This document shows, piece after piece, positions 2,185 to 32,524 of a stretch of DNA of 34,885 bases; the first letter of the stretch is position 1; each line of letters begins with the position of its first letter. The notes beneath the pieces are model-generated. The model saw only the letters and a program-made list of their open reading frames with translations. It searched no databases and was not told where the DNA came from. The position numbers were made by a program, and so were the translations under genes. This DNA comes from Methylocystis sp. (GTDB lineage: Bacteria > Pseudomonadota > Alphaproteobacteria > Rhizobiales > Beijerinckiaceae): positions 1-34,885 of the forward strand of contig JALHNR010000007.1 in the NCBI GenBank assembly GCA_022843525.1, written 5' to 3'.

Positions 2185-3282
2185 ATGGCATCCGCCAAAG
2201 ATATCGCAGCGTCCCTCGAAAAGCTGATCGGAGCGAACGATGAGTCCGCCACCGTGACGCAGTTCCTCGACACCGGCTATCCGCCGTTCAACTATGCCCT
2301 GTCGAACAAGTGGGACGGTGGTTTCCCCGTCGGCCGCATCGTCGAGCTGGCCGGCCCGCCGTCGTCCGGCAAGACTGCGATCGCCACCAAAGCCATGGCG
2401 TCTGCGCAGCGAATGGGCGGCATCGCGATGTTCATGGATCACGAGCATTCCTTCGACGAGAAGCTCGGCGCCCAGATCGGCCTCGACCTGACGCGCGGCA
2501 AGTGGATCTACAAGAAGCCCCGCACGTTCGAGGACTCGCTGTCGATGGTTGTCACCATCGCCAAGCATGTTCGCGCCAACAAGCTGATCCCGAAGGACGC
2601 GCCGATGTGCGCGGTGTTCGATTCGCTCGCCTCCCAGGTGCCGACGTCGGTGCTGATCGACGCCAAGACCGGCGAAGAAAAAGAGCTGGCGAAAAAGTCG
2701 ATGCACGACAATACCGCGCTGGCGCGGGCGACGTCGGGCTCGATGCCGGCGTTCAACCTGTATTGCGAGGAACTCGGCATCTGCGCGATCTTCCTGAACC
2801 AGATTCGCATGAAGCTGGGCGTCATGTATGGCGATCCGCGCACGACGCCGGGCGGTGAGGCTCCGAAATTCTACGCTTCGCAGCGCATCATGCTCGGCGC
2901 CGCCGCGAAGATCACCGACACCAAGAAGGAGGTGCTCGGTATGCAGATCAGCGCGGGCGTCATCAAGAACAAGGTGGCCCGCCCGTTCCGAAAGGCCGAA
3001 TGGCGTTTCATGTTCCAGGCTGACGGTTCCGGCCGCTTCGATGTCGAGCGATCCTTGATCGACTGGCTAGCTACCGAAAAGCTGCTGCCGGTTCCCAAGA
3101 ACGGCTATGTCGAATGGGAGGGTAAAACGATACATCGGGAGCACCTCGCCCGACAGATCGAGAAGGACGGCAAGTTCGCCGAACTCCTCAAGCTGCTGCC
3201 CGCCGCCTACGAGCCGCCGAAGCTAGGTGCGGACGAAATGCCCGCCACCGATGCCGATGCTCCAGAGGAAGTCGCTGCCTGA
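2185..3282 (+). CDS. recA: RecA-family recombinase
   Basis: A 365-residue strand-exchange ATPase. Walker A is GPPSSGKT (57-64); the MFMDHEHSFD segment matches the RecA IDAEHALD region; the Walker B-like strand is MCAVFDSLA; and loop L2 region FLNQIRMKLGVMYGDP...GGEAPKFYAS is almost word-for-word cellular RecA, so this is nearer to bacterial RecA than to T4 UvsX. I chose ATG 2185 because AGGAG lies just upstream and the RecA fold starts there; the frame stays open to 2050 but has no RBS. The tail is acidic (DADAPEEV), as in RecA. It likely works with the Mre11/Rad50 pair and RuvC-like gene downstream in recombination-dependent replication. Confidence 0.95.
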   Translation: MASAKDIAASLEKLIGANDESATVTQFLDTGYPPFNYALSNKWDGGFPVGRIVELAGPPSSGKTAIATKAMASAQRMGGIAMFMDHEHSFDEKLGAQIGLDLTRGKWIYKKPRTFEDSLSMVVTIAKHVRANKLIPKDAPMCAVFDSLASQVPTSVLIDAKTGEEKELAKKSMHDNTALARATSGSMPAFNLYCEELGICAIFLNQIRMKLGVMYGDPRTTPGGEAPKFYASQRIMLGAAAKITDTKKEVLGMQISAGVIKNKVARPFRKAEWRFMFQADGSGRFDVERSLIDWLATEKLLPVPKNGYVEWEGKTIHREHLARQIEKDGKFAELLKLLPAAYEPPKLGADEMPATDADAPEEVAA

Positions 3283-3524
3283 TGCCGCTGTTTCTGGTCT
3301 CCGTCGAGGGTAAATTTCACTACACAGCCGAGGGCTCGTTCGCCATCGAGGCTGCGACCCTCGACGAGGCCAGAATTGCCGGCGAGAAGGCGCTTCAAAA
3401 CGGCACGGCAGATGTCACCTGGGACCAGGATCGTATTCCGGAGGATATCGCGAACAGCCCGCCGGTGGTCACGGAGGTCGAAATTCTTGCCGAAGGCACT
3501 GAGGATATCAAGGAGCGGTTCTAA
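3282..3524 (+). CDS. Small hypothetical protein, MPLFLV family member 2
   Basis: 80 residues, unknown. It begins MPLFLVSVEGKFHY, followed by an ATLDEARIAGEKAL helix, a pattern of a short beta strand then an amphipathic helix that resembles the protein at 411. The start overlaps the recA stop as TGATG, so it is in the recA operon. The similarity to the 411 protein is short and would need a profile comparison to confirm. Confidence 0.75.
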   Translation: MPLFLVSVEGKFHYTAEGSFAIEAATLDEARIAGEKALQNGTADVTWDQDRIPEDIANSPPVVTEVEILAEGTEDIKERF

Positions 3525-12422: not shown

Positions 12423-12472
12423 AAACGCGCGCAAACCGAGTCGTTTGCGCTATATTGTAAGTCAGAACTTAC
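12423..12472 (+). promoter_or_regulatory. Promoter module 3 with operator
   Basis: CGCAAACC at 12430 lies exactly 21 bases before TATATT at 12451. The box forms one arm of a perfect dyad, GCGCAAAC (12429-12436)/GTTTGCGC (12443-12450). Downstream, GTAAGT-CAGA-ACTTAC (12457-12472) is a degenerate form of the AGTCAG palindrome. It drives the gene at 12486 and the RuvC-like gene. Confidence 0.75.
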
Positions 12473-12485
12473 ACCGAAGAGATTT

Positions 12486-12998
12486 ATGGCCCGAGTAAAA
12501 GCAAAAGACCCCGCCGCTGTCCTGATCGACACCCTCAAGAATGCGATCACGGACGGCGTGATGAAGGATCTCTGTCTGGAGGTCGCGGCGCCGATCAAGA
12601 TGCAAGCGAAATTGGCCAAGAACGGTCAATATCGCACCGTGTCGGTCAGCCGCGGCGAGGAGCTTATGCCGTCGGGAGTTCGCCTTGGCGCCAAAGGCGA
12701 GGCGAAGATCATCTTTGAGTTCAAGCCGGTGGATCCCGGCGACTATGAACAATACGAGCTGGACGACGCCAAGGTCTGGACCGCGTTTCCAGACCTGGAG
12801 AGTCTGGTCATTCGCGCCCTCGACATCGAGGCTGTCAACACCGACGGCGAGTCGGTCCGCTTCGCTCAGGTCAAGCCGCAGTTTCTGAACGCTGCGCGCG
12901 AGAAGGAAGAGATTCGGGTCGAGACCGAAAAGGCCGATGCCGAGCGCAAGGTCAAGAATCACTACGAGGACCACCCGTTGTTTGGAGTTTGGGGATGA
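12486..12998 (+). CDS. Hypothetical protein upstream of RuvC-like resolvase
   Basis: 170 residues. The sequence alternates basic and acidic sections with a likely beta-rich middle (EAKIIFEFKPVDPGDYEQYELDDAKVWTAFPDL) and a charged helical tail (AREKEEIRVETEKADAERKVKNHYEDH). No family recognised. The stop overlaps the RuvC-like start as ATGA, implying joint expression with it. Confidence 0.7.
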   Translation: MARVKAKDPAAVLIDTLKNAITDGVMKDLCLEVAAPIKMQAKLAKNGQYRTVSVSRGEELMPSGVRLGAKGEAKIIFEFKPVDPGDYEQYELDDAKVWTAFPDLESLVIRALDIEAVNTDGESVRFAQVKPQFLNAAREKEEIRVETEKADAERKVKNHYEDHPLFGVWG

Positions 12999-13644: not shown

Positions 13645-13694
13645 TCCTTAATATGGTTCGTTCAACTTCAAATATGACCAAAAGGACACCCTCA

Positions 13695-16199
13695 ATGGGC
13701 ACCCCCGCGCGCGACTATTTCCCAGGCATGGGTCAGGCTGTCGCCGATCGCACCATCAACCGCAAGATCGTCCGCAAGTTCGAGGCTCCCCGACTGATCG
13801 AGTTCTCGGTGCCGCTCGCAGAGGGCCATTTCACGGTCGAGGATCTGGTTAAGGAATACGCCCGGATCCAGGGCTATGTCATGGACCCGAGCGAGAAGCC
13901 GGTTCTGAATATTGGTGACGATAAGGCATTGTCAGGCTTTTTCTGGGCGACCGGGCGAAAAGGTGTCGAAAGCTGGGCCGATGTGGCGGCGCGTGTCGCT
14001 TTGGGCAATTCGCTGCTCGAACCCGACACGTTTTTTCAGGATCGCGAGCGACGCCGCATGGAGCACCATCTGCGCCAGGCCTCGCTGCTGATGTCCGGCC
14101 GGCACCTGCAGCACGGCGACGAGACGCAGCCCTCGCGCAACATGGAAGTTTTCACGAACTGCTCAACCTCGGCCTCGACCTTTCTGATGTTCTACCTGCT
14201 GCTCAACGGCTCCGGCGTTGGTCGCGCCTATGACGACACCATGATCAAATCGGATCTGAACAAGATGCCGATCGTGGTCTGCACCATCAGCTGGGGCCAC
14301 CAGGACGTCGAGAAGGGCATCATTCAGGGCTTCCCGACCCGACGCGATACCGAGCACCTCTACGAGGGCCGCAAGATCACCGTGTTCGAAGTGCCCGACA
14401 GCCGCGAGGGCTGGGCAAAGGGCATCGAAATCATCGAGCGCATGGCGTTCGAGGAACGGCGCGAAGAAGTGTTGATCCTGGAATTCACAGGCGTTCGCCC
14501 GAAGAACGCGCCGATCATGGGTATGCAGGGTCGCCCCGCCTCGGGTCCCGGCCCGCTGATGGCTGCGATCGCCAACATCGCGAAGCTCCGCGACGCCGGC
14601 ATGGCGCCCTGGCGCGCGGCCATGTATGCCGACCACTACGCCGCCGAGTGTGTTCTCGTCGGCGGCGCCCGTCGCGCAGCGCGCATGGCAACTAAGACCT
14701 GGCGTGACGCAACCACCCTTGATTTTGTTCAGGTCAAGCGTGGTGGCTTCCTGTGGTCCTCGAACAACTCGGTCACGGTCGATCAGGAATTTCGCGACGG
14801 CGTGCTTCATGTGCGGGCGTTGATGGCTCGCTTTTTTCAGGGTGCCGAAAGTCACACTGAAAATTGGCTGCGGTTTATCGTCAAGGATAAATACGCCACG
14901 GCCATGCAGGTTCACGCCTATCGTGTGATGATGGCGATCGCCGCGGCCGCCTACCAAGATGGCACCGGGGAACCGGGCATCATCAATCAGGATCGGCTGA
15001 CCCAGAACGACGAGGGCATCGACGCCTATACCGACGGGCTGTTTGCCGACAGCGCCAAGTTCCAGCTCGACCGCGAGTCCCTACCCTTGATGGCCGCGCT
15101 CGCGAAGTCGGCGATGGAGCTCAAATACAAGGTCATCACCAACCCCTGCGGCGAGATCGTGCTGCTGCTGTTGGGCGGCTACTGCGTCATCGCCGACGTG
15201 GTGCCGTTCCATGCCGGCTCGAAGTGGCGCATGAAGGGCTTCAAGAGCCAGAAGTGGCAAGACGATGGCTGGGATGACGACGCCGAGGACGCCTTCCGGG
15301 TCGCCACGCGGGCGCTGATTCGCACCAACCTGATGGACAGTCTCTACAAGCGGGAGGTGACGCGCACCAACCGGATCGGCGTCGGCATTACGGGTTTCCA
15401 CGAATGGGCCTATGCCCGCTTTGGCTTCACCTGGCACGATCTGGTGAACGAGGAGAAATCCAAAGCTCTCTGGCAGACCATGTCGCGGTTCAAGCGCGCG
15501 ATCGTGGCCGAAGCCGCGGCCTACTCGAAGGAGCTCGATGTCGTCGTGCCCCACACCAACACGACGTTCAAGCCCGCCGGCACCACCTCGAAGCTGTTCG
15601 GGTTGACCGAGGGCGCGCATCTGCCCACCATGCGGGAATTCATCCGATGGGTGCAGTTCCGCAACGACGATCCGCTGGTCGCCGAATACGAGGCCAAGGG
15701 CTATCCGGTGAAGCACCTGAAGACCTACAGTGGCACGACCATCGTCGGCTTCCCGACGCGGCCGGCAATCTGTGAGCTGGGCGGCGGCGCCTGGGTTGTC
15801 ACCGCATCGGAAGCGACGCCGGAGGAGCAGTATCGGTTCCTCCAGCTGCTGGAGAAGTATTGGCTTACCGGAGTTGACGCCGATGGCGTCACGCCGCTGA
15901 TCGAGAGCGGCAATCAGATCTCCTACACGCTCAAATACGACCCCAAGAAGGTCACGTTTGATCGCTTCCTGGAGACGCTGATCGAGGGCCAGTTCAAGAT
16001 CCGCTGCTGCTCGGTGATGCCGCAGGAGGACAAGAGCGCCTATGAGTATCTGCCGGAATCCGCAGTAAACAAGGATGAATACGAGCATATCGCCGCTGCG
16101 ATCGCAGCCAGCAATATGGCCGAGGACATCGGCTTGGAGCATGTGGACTGCGGCGGGGGTGCTTGTCCCGTGGATTTCTCTTCCGAGAAAGCGGCGTAA
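13695..16199 (+). CDS. nrdJ: Class II adenosylcobalamin-dependent ribonucleotide reductase
   Basis: 834 residues from ATG 13695, chosen because AAGGA sits 8 bases upstream; ATGs at 13653 and 13674 also stay in frame but 13653 lies too close to the promoter. Key sites match monomeric B12-type RTPR: C156 in NCSTS, thiyl-type C485 in NPCGEI and C497 twelve residues on, and C-terminal redox pair C819-x4-C824 (CGGGAC), as in the C731/C736 pair of the Lactobacillus enzyme. It makes dNTPs from NTPs and needs host cobalamin, not oxygen, so the phage can work in low oxygen. At 834 residues it is longer than the Lactobacillus enzyme (739). Confidence 0.93.
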   Translation: MGTPARDYFPGMGQAVADRTINRKIVRKFEAPRLIEFSVPLAEGHFTVEDLVKEYARIQGYVMDPSEKPVLNIGDDKALSGFFWATGRKGVESWADVAARVALGNSLLEPDTFFQDRERRRMEHHLRQASLLMSGRHLQHGDETQPSRNMEVFTNCSTSASTFLMFYLLLNGSGVGRAYDDTMIKSDLNKMPIVVCTISWGHQDVEKGIIQGFPTRRDTEHLYEGRKITVFEVPDSREGWAKGIEIIERMAFEERREEVLILEFTGVRPKNAPIMGMQGRPASGPGPLMAAIANIAKLRDAGMAPWRAAMYADHYAAECVLVGGARRAARMATKTWRDATTLDFVQVKRGGFLWSSNNSVTVDQEFRDGVLHVRALMARFFQGAESHTENWLRFIVKDKYATAMQVHAYRVMMAIAAAAYQDGTGEPGIINQDRLTQNDEGIDAYTDGLFADSAKFQLDRESLPLMAALAKSAMELKYKVITNPCGEIVLLLLGGYCVIADVVPFHAGSKWRMKGFKSQKWQDDGWDDDAEDAFRVATRALIRTNLMDSLYKREVTRTNRIGVGITGFHEWAYARFGFTWHDLVNEEKSKALWQTMSRFKRAIVAEAAAYSKELDVVVPHTNTTFKPAGTTSKLFGLTEGAHLPTMREFIRWVQFRNDDPLVAEYEAKGYPVKHLKTYSGTTIVGFPTRPAICELGGGAWVVTASEATPEEQYRFLQLLEKYWLTGVDADGVTPLIESGNQISYTLKYDPKKVTFDRFLETLIEGQFKIRCCSVMPQEDKSAYEYLPESAVNKDEYEHIAAAIAASNMAEDIGLEHVDCGGGACPVDFSSEKAA

Positions 16200-16201
16200 A
16201 G

Positions 16202-16259
16202 TTCCACGCGCAACCCGCGTCAAGATCGCTATATTGATTTGTGAAAGTCAGTATTGACT
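16202..16259 (+). promoter_or_regulatory. Promoter module 5 with operator
   Basis: Box TTCCACGCGCAACCC at 16202-16216, TATATT at 16230-16235 (21 from CGCAACCC), and operator AGTCAGTATTGACT at 16246-16259. The gap between -10 and operator is 10 bases, not 3 as in the other modules. The box also forms a dyad, ACGCG-CAACC-CGCGT. Confidence 0.78.
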
Positions 16260-16306
16260 GATCGCAAGACAGTCACTAGAGACGATCATAGCGCGAGGAG
16301 GCCGCG

Positions 16307-16318
16307 ATGAAGCTGTAA
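16307..16318 (+). CDS. Possible 3-codon leader ORF (MKL)
   Basis: ATG AAG CTG TAA with a near-perfect ribosome site GAGGAGG just upstream, lying between promoter module 5 and the terminator at 16343. It may be a leader peptide for an attenuator or simply a chance ribosome site. Three codons cannot be validated from sequence alone. Confidence 0.3.
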   Translation: MKL

Positions 16319-16342
16319 CCCCGTTTCAATTATCTCCCAGCT

Positions 16343-16372
16343 GGCCCCGGTTTAAGCGCCGGGGCCGCTTTT
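16343..16372 (+). terminator. Intrinsic terminator or attenuator
   Basis: GGCCCCGG (16343-16350) pairs perfectly with CCGGGGCC (16359-16366) around an 8-base loop, followed by GCTTTT. It lies roughly 110-130 bases downstream of promoter module 5 and ahead of the gene at 16397, so it may end a short RNA or attenuate the downstream operon. Confidence 0.8.
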
Positions 16373-16396
16373 CCGACAGCACACACGAGGACGACA

Positions 16397-16690
16397 ATGG
16401 CTTGCAACAAGAAGCTCCAGGCGGACGGAGCCACGACATGGCCCCGCACCTGTTCGCAATGCAAACTTGGCCCCTGCACCCACCCGGACTATGCGCCGGG
16501 GAAAAGTGGTCACGCCGACGCGCTTAAGCAGATTGCCGGGCTGATCCAGAAGCTGTCCTACCGGGACATGCTGGCGCTGGGCAAAGAATTGTCCGCCCGC
16601 CTTAATAAGCTGGACGACTGCGATCCTCAGACCTGCGCCGAGGTTCTTGTCGAGGTCGCTGACGAGATTCTCACCAAGGAGCCTAAGTGA
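16397..16690 (+). CDS. Small protein with CxxCKxGPC motif, copy 2
   Basis: 97 residues. TCSQCKLGPCTHPDY near residues 18-32 matches the CxxCKxGPC pattern in the protein at 8103; the rest is helical (ALKQIAGLIQKLSYRDMLALGKELSARLNK). A small metal-binding protein with a helical body, function unknown. Good RBS (GAGGACGAC) upstream of ATG 16397, right after the terminator. Confidence 0.75.
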   Translation: MACNKKLQADGATTWPRTCSQCKLGPCTHPDYAPGKSGHADALKQIAGLIQKLSYRDMLALGKELSARLNKLDDCDPQTCAEVLVEVADEILTKEPK

Positions 16691-16948: not shown

Positions 16949-17866
16949 ATGACCGTTTCCGCCAAAATGATCCTCGACAGTTCGGCGCACGGCGAGCGCC
17001 TGACCTCGATCGAGGCTCGCTACCCCAAATTCATTCACGGCGAACTGATGACGCATCGGGTGTTCTCCCGGAACGCCTCGTCGTCGCGCGCCATTCCCGT
17101 CGAGCGTCTGATCGAGGACGTGCTGCGCGACCCCGCGCTGCCGGAGAAGTGGTTCAAGAACAAAGCCGGCATGCAGGGCACGGAAGAGATCGTCGGTGAC
17201 GAGCGCGAGGAGCTGATTGGCCTTTACCTGGAGGCGATGAGACTCGCCATTCGGCAGGCTCGTGAAATGATCGCTTTCGGCGCCCACAAGCAGCACATCA
17301 ACCGCATCATCGAGCCGTTCTGCCACATCACGACCCTAATCACCTCGACGCAGTGGTCGAACTTCATCGCCCTGCGCGATCACGATATGGCGGATCCGAC
17401 GATGCAAGCGTTAGGCAAGACAGTGCGCAAGGCGCTGGCCACCAGCCTTTCGACCCCGCTGGAGCCCGGTCAGTGGCATCTACCCTATGTCATGCCTAAA
17501 GATGCCGCCCCGGTTATCGATTATCTGCGCAACGATAAGCAGATCAACCCGACCGACGAGCGTATTCAAAAGGTGATGATCCAGCTCTCGGTCGCCCGCG
17601 CCGCTCGCGTATCCTACAAATTGCAGGACGGCATGTTTCCGACCATCGCGAAGGATCTGGAGCTTTACGATCGCCTGGTCGGCGGCGTTCCGCTCCACGC
17701 CTCGCCGGCCGAGCACCAGGCCACGCCGAGCAAGGTTCGAACCGATCTTCAAGATCGGCCCATTCTCTGCGGCGCCAAGCTGACCTTCGTCGGCCCGAAC
17801 CTGGGCGGCAACCTCGGCCCCGGCTGGATTCAGTATCGCAAGACGTTGGCCGGAGAATGCCAATGA
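16949..17866 (+). CDS. thyX: FAD-dependent thymidylate synthase, ThyX-like
   Basis: 305 residues. The signature THRVFSRNASSSRAIP (35-50) is a variant of the ThyX motif RHRxxSxNExSxRY; the first Arg of RHR is Thr here, and the late-motif EPFCHITTLITSTQWSNFIALR and the WHLPYV element fit phage ThyX proteins that I recall. It makes dTMP from dUMP using flavin and methylene-tetrahydrofolate. The changed first Arg is odd: it is normally in the substrate/FAD site, yet the same TLTR/THR form occurs in phage homologs. It sits between RNR and the methyltransferase, fitting a dNTP supply block. Confidence 0.88.
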   Translation: MTVSAKMILDSSAHGERLTSIEARYPKFIHGELMTHRVFSRNASSSRAIPVERLIEDVLRDPALPEKWFKNKAGMQGTEEIVGDEREELIGLYLEAMRLAIRQAREMIAFGAHKQHINRIIEPFCHITTLITSTQWSNFIALRDHDMADPTMQALGKTVRKALATSLSTPLEPGQWHLPYVMPKDAAPVIDYLRNDKQINPTDERIQKVMIQLSVARAARVSYKLQDGMFPTIAKDLELYDRLVGGVPLHASPAEHQATPSKVRTDLQDRPILCGAKLTFVGPNLGGNLGPGWIQYRKTLAGECQ

Positions 17867-31309: not shown

Positions 31310-31717
31310 TTAAATAGCGATGCCGTTTTTTCGCTAAAGGACGACCTTTGTCCGTGGCCCCTCCCCGAACCGGCGGGCCGGATCGAATCCAAGGTCGGAT
31401 TGCACCCGCCGGTTCGAAAAGAGGATCGCCGCGGTCGGGAGGCGACGGTGGCGACCACGATTAATTCTGGCCTCGCTAGATCGTTCCAAAGCGACGTCGC
31501 TGAATAGCGACTTCGCGTTATCGTTCGGACCCGGCCGGGATCGAGCAGCGCGAGTCGGCCTTGCGTTAGATCGCGCTCGACGCACACAGACAGCACTTGA
31601 GCGCCCCGTCGCTCAGTGAGCTTCCCTGAGCGTCGCAGTTCCCAGCAAGTTCCTGCCGCATTCCTCGTTTTTTCGTGTGATCGTCTTAAAGCGACATAGC
31701 GAAAGAGGGAAAAAACG
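31310..31717 (+). other. Structured noncoding region
   Basis: About 400 bases with no credible gene. Visible structures: TAGCGA (31315-31320) with TCGCTA (31331-31336); CGAACCGGCGGG (31366-31377) with CCCGCCGGTTCG (31405-31416), a perfect 12-bp arm pair enclosing a 27-base loop; the palindrome CCCGGCCGGG (31530-31539); GTCGCT-GAAT-AGCGAC (31496-31511); and CGCTCAG/CTGAGCG (31610-31616/31626-31632). It also includes ATGCCGTTTTTTCGCTAA (31320-), a 5-codon remnant-like start. It could be a partition site, replication origin or a structured RNA. Confidence 0.55.
31650..31683 (+). promoter_or_regulatory. Degenerate promoter box before 31718
   Basis: TTCCTGCCGCATTCC at 31650-31664 is close to the box; TGTGAT at 31676 is at the usual distance. 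CGTTTTTTCG lies between, as at 32478. No AGTCAG palindrome, but AGCGACATAGCGAAAG follows. Confidence 0.45.
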
Positions 31718-32448: not shown

Positions 32449-32460
32449 ACTCCCAGCCGA

Positions 32461-32524
32461 TCCCAGCCGCAATCCACGTTTTTTCGCTGCATCGTGAAAT
32501 CGTTCTTTAGCGAATAGTCGCTAA
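32461..32524 (+). promoter_or_regulatory. Promoter box with TTAGCGA dyad
   Basis: TCCCAGCCGCAATCC at 32461-32475, directly after a partial duplicate TCCCAGCCGA at 32451-32460. TGCATC at 32488 is the nearest -10-like sequence (20 bases away). A perfect dyad TTAGCGA-ATAG-TCGCTAA lies at 32507-32524, in the place where the AGTCAG palindrome stands in other modules. Confidence 0.6.

Follow-up and report, generated by a model that had tools for sequence, protein, structure and literature searches.

A start-stop minigene recurs behind an operator promoter in related phages and probably marks a short regulatory RNA

Between a ribonucleotide reductase gene and a thymidylate synthase gene of a phage, a strong ribosome-binding site (RBS) stands ahead of an open reading frame of only three codons, with a promoter before it and a terminator-like hairpin behind it. 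Is this arrangement a regulatory device, and does its function lie in the peptide, in the act of translation or in the ending of the transcript? The locus belongs to a stretch of 34,885 nucleotides, here called the window, which is contig C7 in an assembly of 488 contigs. An earlier note had described a unit of promoter, RBS, mini-ORF and terminator at 16202-16372, and all of these parts were recovered at their positions:

13653-16199, forward strand: class II (B12-dependent) ribonucleotide reductase, the upstream gene (Pfam RNR-II insertion domain, E 5.3e-9).
16210-16235, forward strand: promoter predicted from the sequence, with GCAACCC at the -35 position (16210-16216), a spacer N12 and CTATAT(T) as the -10 element (16229-16234).
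16245-16260, forward strand: palindromic operator AAGTCAGTATTGACTG, at or just past the predicted transcription start.
16295-16301, forward strand: Shine-Dalgarno (SD) sequence GAGGAGG, 5 nt ahead of the ATG; the RBS-ATG spacing is similar in relatives.
16307-16318, forward strand: minigene ATG-AAG-CTG-TAA, ATGAAGCTGTAA, encoding MKL; the core common to relatives.
16333-16339, forward strand: anti-SD-like TCTCCCA, the predicted partner of the minigene's own SD.
16342-16372, forward strand: predicted intrinsic terminator, with arms GGCCCCGG (16343-16350) and CCGGGGCC (16359-16366) and TTTT at 16369-16372.
16397-16690, forward strand: gene for a 97-aa protein, downstream of the terminator, with relatives in L004 and L005.
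16949-17866, forward strand: ThyX-type thymidylate synthase (PHROG 85 thymidylate synthase, E 8.4e-68; Pfam Thy1 slightly below the cut-off).

The window reductase is 62.5-65.4% identical to the reductases annotated in Rhizobium phages (tblastn). The 97-aa protein matched no Pfam or PHROG family, and its search against phage records gave no match. The promoter module of 16210-16235 is also present at other sites in the window, and its -10 element fits the alphaproteobacterial RpoD signature, CTTAGAC-N17-CTATAT in the available part of PMC10746234. The operator palindrome, searched as AGTCANNNNTGACT with at most one mismatch, occurs seven times in the window compared with 0.49 copies expected. 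Both promoter and terminator are non-canonical by E. coli rules, because a consensus scan (TTGACA-like -35; five T in eight) listed neither the promoter at 16210 nor the terminator at 16342. If transcription is assumed to start about 7 nt past the -10 element, the predicted RNA would be about 130 nt long. The distance from the end of the operator to the gene at 16397 is 136 nt, compared with 7-28 nt in the five other modules measured. The gap between -10 element and operator is also wide in the module at 16245, with 9 bp after TATATT compared with 2 bp in typical modules. The earlier note had called this gap unique in the window, which is true, but the same gap recurs in the C3 copy (of the same phage) and at the corresponding promoters in L005 and L010. 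Elsewhere in the window, a perfect inverted repeat of 8 bp, GCGCAAACCGAGTCGTTTGCGC (12429-12450), overlaps the promoter module ahead of the gene at 12486, and a direct repeat with copies 76% alike occupies 31640-31684 and 32451-32495, with CGTTTTTTCG in both copies.

The hairpin stands out from shuffled sequence. An equally good hairpin followed by TTTT appeared in none of 2000 shuffles of 16200-16396 and in one of 60 shuffles of the whole window, and the hairpin at 16343 has the highest number of G-C pairs among the 14 hairpin-plus-TTTT sites on the three phage contigs (C3, C4 and C7). The leader fold has a z of -2.2, with three of 200 shuffles equally good. GGAGG-N3-8-ATG on its own shows no enrichment across the whole window (6 found, 7.1 expected), and the case for the mini-ORF is therefore a comparative one.

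The earlier note had made its proposal depend on conservation in related phages, and the core of the unit does recur there, the shared part being the minigene and not the terminator. Among 14 operator promoters chosen by hand in the interval from reductase to thyX, seven were followed within 130 nt by an SD and an ORF of one to four codons (the window, L005, L006, L007, L010, L011 and L198), compared with 0.15 expected, and seven were not (L008, L009, L062, L063, L066, L079 and L182); some of the minigenes had been noticed by eye before this test was fixed. The test was repeated because several loci had a second site outside the hand-picked 14. The repeat took every operator site scoring at least 9 of 10 in the interval between reductase and thyX, with a stretch of 2500 nt used in loci without a placed thyX, and it included L181, where no site reaches that score. 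Across the 15 near loci, the window among them, 7 of 22 operator sites were followed by an RBS and an ORF of one to four codons, compared with 0.27 expected from dinucleotide shuffles. As a control, 431 distinct operator-like sites or reading directions in phage loci gave 12 matches, namely the same seven (L005 appearing as L053) and 5 of the 424 others. A second control, 94 more distant reductase loci with 35 operator sites in 23 of them, gave no minigene (0 of 35).

Altogether, 14 minigene carriers were found, nine through their proteins (reductase, 97-aa protein, ThyX) and five through cassette DNA only. The ThyX search led to nine loci and to the minigene in three of them, L170 (on the contig of L011), L171 (on that of L231) and L175 (on that of L230), and no minigene was found in L172-L174 and L176-L178. 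In L171 and L175 the operator scores 8, under the 9-of-10 threshold, yet the minigene is present; the contig of L231 was also reached through the 97-aa protein, as L004. The cassette-only carriers are L235, found by a hairpin motif and used as L236, and L237-L240, found by blastn with the L235 cassette. These five are examples and do not measure a frequency, and the carrier count leaves out the blastn matches RHph_N2_6 and RHph_Y2_17_1 as well as one duplicate record. Eight of the 14 carriers (L198, L230, L231 and L236-L240) are close relatives, and the independent lineages number about six. Ten near relatives have no minigene at the locus (L008, L009, L062, L063, L066, L079, L181, L182, L241 and L242, the last two obtained for their reductase and without a minigene in the stretch read), which indicates that the minigene is not essential. 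A strict pattern search for the MKL cassette gave no match, a search for the promoter-operator-RBS pattern returned only the contig of L006, and the feature tables of five relative records, of which the plasmid table is incomplete, hold no feature at the minigene.

What is kept among the carriers is the position and brevity of the ORF. The ATG lies 35-46 nt from the end of the operator in 13 of the 14 carriers and 67 nt from it in L010. The encoded peptides are MKL in the window and in L011, MTRG in L005, MR in L006, M in L007, MK in L010, MKK in L198, MKLI in L230, MTKF in L231, MKRL in L236, MKSL in L237 and L238, MKHL in L239 and MKQ in L240, and the second codon is AAG in 10 of the 14. Within the group of close relatives, the SD, the ATG and the flanks are alike, whereas the inner codons, the number of codons (three or four) and the stop (TAA or TAG) vary, so that the length differs by one whole codon. 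Because the flanks, SD and ATG stay while codons, length and stop change, it is the short translation that is kept and not the peptide. This runs against the part of the earlier note that gave weight to MKL itself, as peptide, length and stop codon all vary among carriers. The apparent target of selection is a quick start and stop, not MKL, and the pattern, as far as sequence can tell, is what peptide-blind selection for a very short translated ORF would give.

An SD, one to four codons and an AAG second codon in 10 of 14 cases also recall the toxic minigenes, of which the phage precedent is lambda bar, a start codon and stop described in the available part of PMC8012679 as AUG-AUA-UAA and toxic when Pth is deficient. 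A minigene of this kind would act in trans, with peptidyl-tRNA drop-off starving the host of a tRNA. In contrast to bar, the phages studied here have one to four variable codons in a promoter-controlled leader, and the window minigene has three codons and not two. According to the available part of PMC8708949, the identity of the lost tRNA depends on the last sense codon, and this codon is not conserved among the carriers. The two-codon length that the same text calls most toxic is confined to L006 and L010, with one, three or four codons in the remaining 12 of the 14. We consider a toxic role very improbable.

Downstream of the minigene, a hairpin with a U tract lies within 400 nt in 2 of the 14 carriers, the window and L005, and in none of the other 12. 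Between these two the stems differ in sequence with the pairing kept; their leaders align poorly beyond the operator. The earlier proposal of a stand-alone RNA of about 130 nt is plausible for these two phages, where the terminator ends the unit. In L006 a hairpin without a U tract follows the minigene. In L007 a second operator promoter stands ahead of the next gene, and the minigene RNA there stands alone because the next gene has its own promoter.

The earlier note had also suggested that translation of MKL controls readthrough. The unit would then be an attenuator in which translating the minigene, or failing to, decides how much polymerase passes the terminator and goes on to the 97-aa gene and thyX. 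An intrinsic terminator does follow the leader ORF in the window and L005, and the long distance from operator to gene, noted above, would accommodate such a device. The stem begins 20-24 nt past the stop codon in the window, inside the zone of less than about 27 nt within which, in the available part of PMC4824070, a ribosome at the stop codon represses an E. coli terminator; in the same text, amino-acid attenuators keep a distance of more than 20 bp between leader ORF and terminator. However, the spacer measures 29 nt in L005, and the same source finds termination to be efficient when the terminator falls within the first 100 bp of a coding region. Readthrough control is weakened by this spacer geometry (20-24 and 29 nt against about 27 nt) and by the absence of a U-tract terminator, under the 400-nt rule, from 12 of the 14 minigene loci. 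Moreover, the ORF is very short and its codons are not conserved, MKL offers no sensory codons of the kind that an attenuator reads, and the predicted folds include no strong antiterminator, with only short alternative pairings seen by eye. The suggestion is doubtful, and we regard attenuation as unlikely.

The S. meliloti trp attenuator, whose released RNA is rnTrpL, offers an alphaproteobacterial parallel. There a short leader ORF is likewise followed by an attenuator and the leader product is reported to act in trans (PMC7298713); unlike the minigene, whose peptide is not conserved, the leader peptide peTrpL has a role of its own.

A simpler account is that promoter and terminator insulate thyX and that the ATG and stop between them are incidental. 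L062 and, by eye, L079 and L242 do combine a promoter with a terminator-like hairpin and no minigene. Insulation leaves both the excess of minigenes (7 of 22 against 0.27 expected) and their similar spacing without explanation, however, and we judge it improbable.

In most of the other carriers, the minigene is followed by a different kind of RNA. The element CGTCAGAAAAYAAGCCYGG is present in 10 of the 14 (L010, L011, L198, L230, L231 and L236-L240), and a conserved structured RNA follows the minigene in L010, L011, L198, L230, L231 and L235-L240. It comprises a hairpin around GCCGGGATCGTCAGAAAATAAGCCCGGC and then, in most of these loci, a long stem with many compensatory changes. When a 17-pair stem was compared in six CGTCAGAAAAYAAGCCYGG loci, five kept 16-17 pairs, and at many of these pairs both partners had changed; in the sixth, L011, the pairing partner looks right by eye only. 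A tRNA-Cys lies downstream in L011, L198 and L235. Rfam gave no family at gathering score in the window and the 13 other carrier loci except tRNAs, which were found in L011, L198 and L236 and not in the window. In or after the long stem, L198, L230 and L235 carry a tRNA-like sequence, GGATGACAGTTAGAGC.TAATCGCTGCTGAAAG.CGG..., in which some parts resemble a D-arm and others a T-arm and the middle is very short; ARAGORN made no call for it. At about 3210-3353, L004 also has ends that resemble those of a tRNA, GGTGTCCCG...GGTTCGACTCCTCGGCGGGATACCA, around a large middle, again with no ARAGORN call in L231 (same contig).

Could the RNA itself, through its anti-SD motif, be the effector? Folding predicts that a pyrimidine run further downstream pairs with the minigene SD, with a probability of 0.66-0.79 in the window and 0.80-1.0 in L005, a prediction to be read with the many hairpins of GC-rich leaders in mind; the folds of L006 and L007 do not predict pairing of the SD with a downstream anti-SD. 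The motif [TC]CTCCCA follows the minigene in 5 of 14 carriers (the window, L005, L010, L011 and L238) and is absent from nine. In L010 and L011 it takes the form CCUCCUCCC, the anti-SD motif of the rhizobial alpha-r14 RNAs (available parts of PMC3927594 and PMC10746234). The unit might thus encode a trans-acting sRNA like rhizobial NfeR1 (alpha-r14) or AbcR, with an anti-SD seed that silences host or phage mRNAs and is masked by the minigene SD until a ribosome opens it. The window unit has its own promoter and terminator, and its CTATAT -10 element resembles that at NfeR1 (available part of PMC10746234). In those sources, however, an alpha-r14 RNA contains three hairpins that all carry CCUCCUCCC, whereas the loci described here have a minigene and no more than a single [TC]CTCCCA motif within 420 nt. 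The motif is missing from 9 of the 14, the window has UCUCCCA only, predicted to be paired and not in a free loop, and Rfam, as stated, recognized no non-tRNA family. A trans-acting sRNA of this type seems to us quite unlikely.

The operator is not confined to the unit. Copies with both half-sites perfect number 28 on contigs C3 and C4 and six in the window (C7), 34 in total. C3, C4 and C7, of 43,373, 38,072 and 34,885 nt, sum to 116,330 nt, compared with 114-119 kb for the largest near relatives, and we infer that they form one phage; the C3 and C4 loci are L224-L229. The palindrome AAGTCAGNNCTGACTT is found mostly ahead of genes, at several positions relative to -10 elements, across this phage of about 116 kb, and also in distant phages near tRNA-cluster promoters (L012, L014, L016, L056 and others). 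It looks like a genome-wide operator, such as a phage-plasmid repressor would be expected to have. Among the relatives are plasmid records of Methylobacterium, Shinella and Pararhizobium together with Rhizobium phages such as RHEph10, which L235 matches at 100% identity over 291 nt; judged by the type and size of the records, the group seems to include phage-plasmids. When 397 genomes of the host family were searched for the reductase at E 1e-100, the window's own genome was the only match. Genome-contig relatives of at most 60% identity (80 of 173) were kept and were left out of the cassette scan. PadR-like regulator genes lie divergent from the post-reductase promoter in L240 (1068-1370, reverse strand) and L241 (6542-6841, reverse strand), adjoining repeated GTAAG/CTTAC motifs; the L240 promoter drives a minigene and that of L241 does not.

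Taken together, the short RNA with its start-stop minigene is probably a real regulatory device and not a product of chance. Our preferred reading, which we hold tentatively and put close to an even chance, is that the unit is a leader RNA under operator control, with a minigene that draws in a ribosome and exerts its effect in cis, and that in the window this RNA ends at a terminator. Host RNA polymerase would start near 16241-16245, where the palindrome may let a phage regulator switch the promoter. The transcript is predicted to fold with its strong SD paired to the downstream UCUCC. A ribosome that won the SD would initiate, add two residues and stop, the peptide being irrelevant, and a ribosome repeatedly parked near the 5' end of the RNA would open the SD/anti-SD helix. 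By analogy with leader minigenes elsewhere, the parked ribosome would probably shield the RNA or set its fold. In the window phage and L005 the intrinsic terminator would end most transcripts at about 130 nt, and some transcription would leak through to the 97-aa gene and thyX. The same minigene would head a structured RNA in ten relatives, Rhizobium phages included, followed in some by tRNA-Cys.

Cis-acting leader minigenes are documented in the available part of PMC8708949 for axe-txe mg2 and, as cited there, for LEE4 esp and LEE1 ler. As in those systems, where the ORF has two to six codons, an SD and very few codons lie inside the leader at all 14 loci, given the predicted 5' end of the transcript. 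There, ribosome binding or translation acts in cis and the peptide is not the effector; in the phages cis action is inferred, and comparison among carriers points to an irrelevant peptide. In the same text, each of those minigenes affects a single gene downstream of it, in a toxin-antitoxin or a virulence operon, whereas the minigene described here sits in a phage leader under a phage-wide operator, is kept across a phage group and is followed by a terminator or a structured RNA. A more speculative extension, which we rate as unlikely, is that the minigene RNAs of phages and phage-plasmids form a family of ribosome-operated switches under an operator common to other promoters of the phage, in which loading of the SD would break the SD/anti-SD helix and expose an anti-SD seed or refold the RNA, coupling host translation capacity to phage expression.

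The minigenes described so far, in leaders and in lambda, are single cases. Our literature search (titles and abstract openings among the matches listed, outside subscription journals and preprints) returned no minigenes in rhizobial phages and none kept across a phage group. The isolated phages RHEph10, whose record names Rhizobium etli CFN42 as host, RHph_N1_15, RHph_N1_10 and RHph_Y2_11 offer material for testing the unit. A set of minigenes retained at the same locus across a group of phages, with a free peptide and a length that changes by whole codons, would show that near-instant starting and stopping of translation is itself a selected function.
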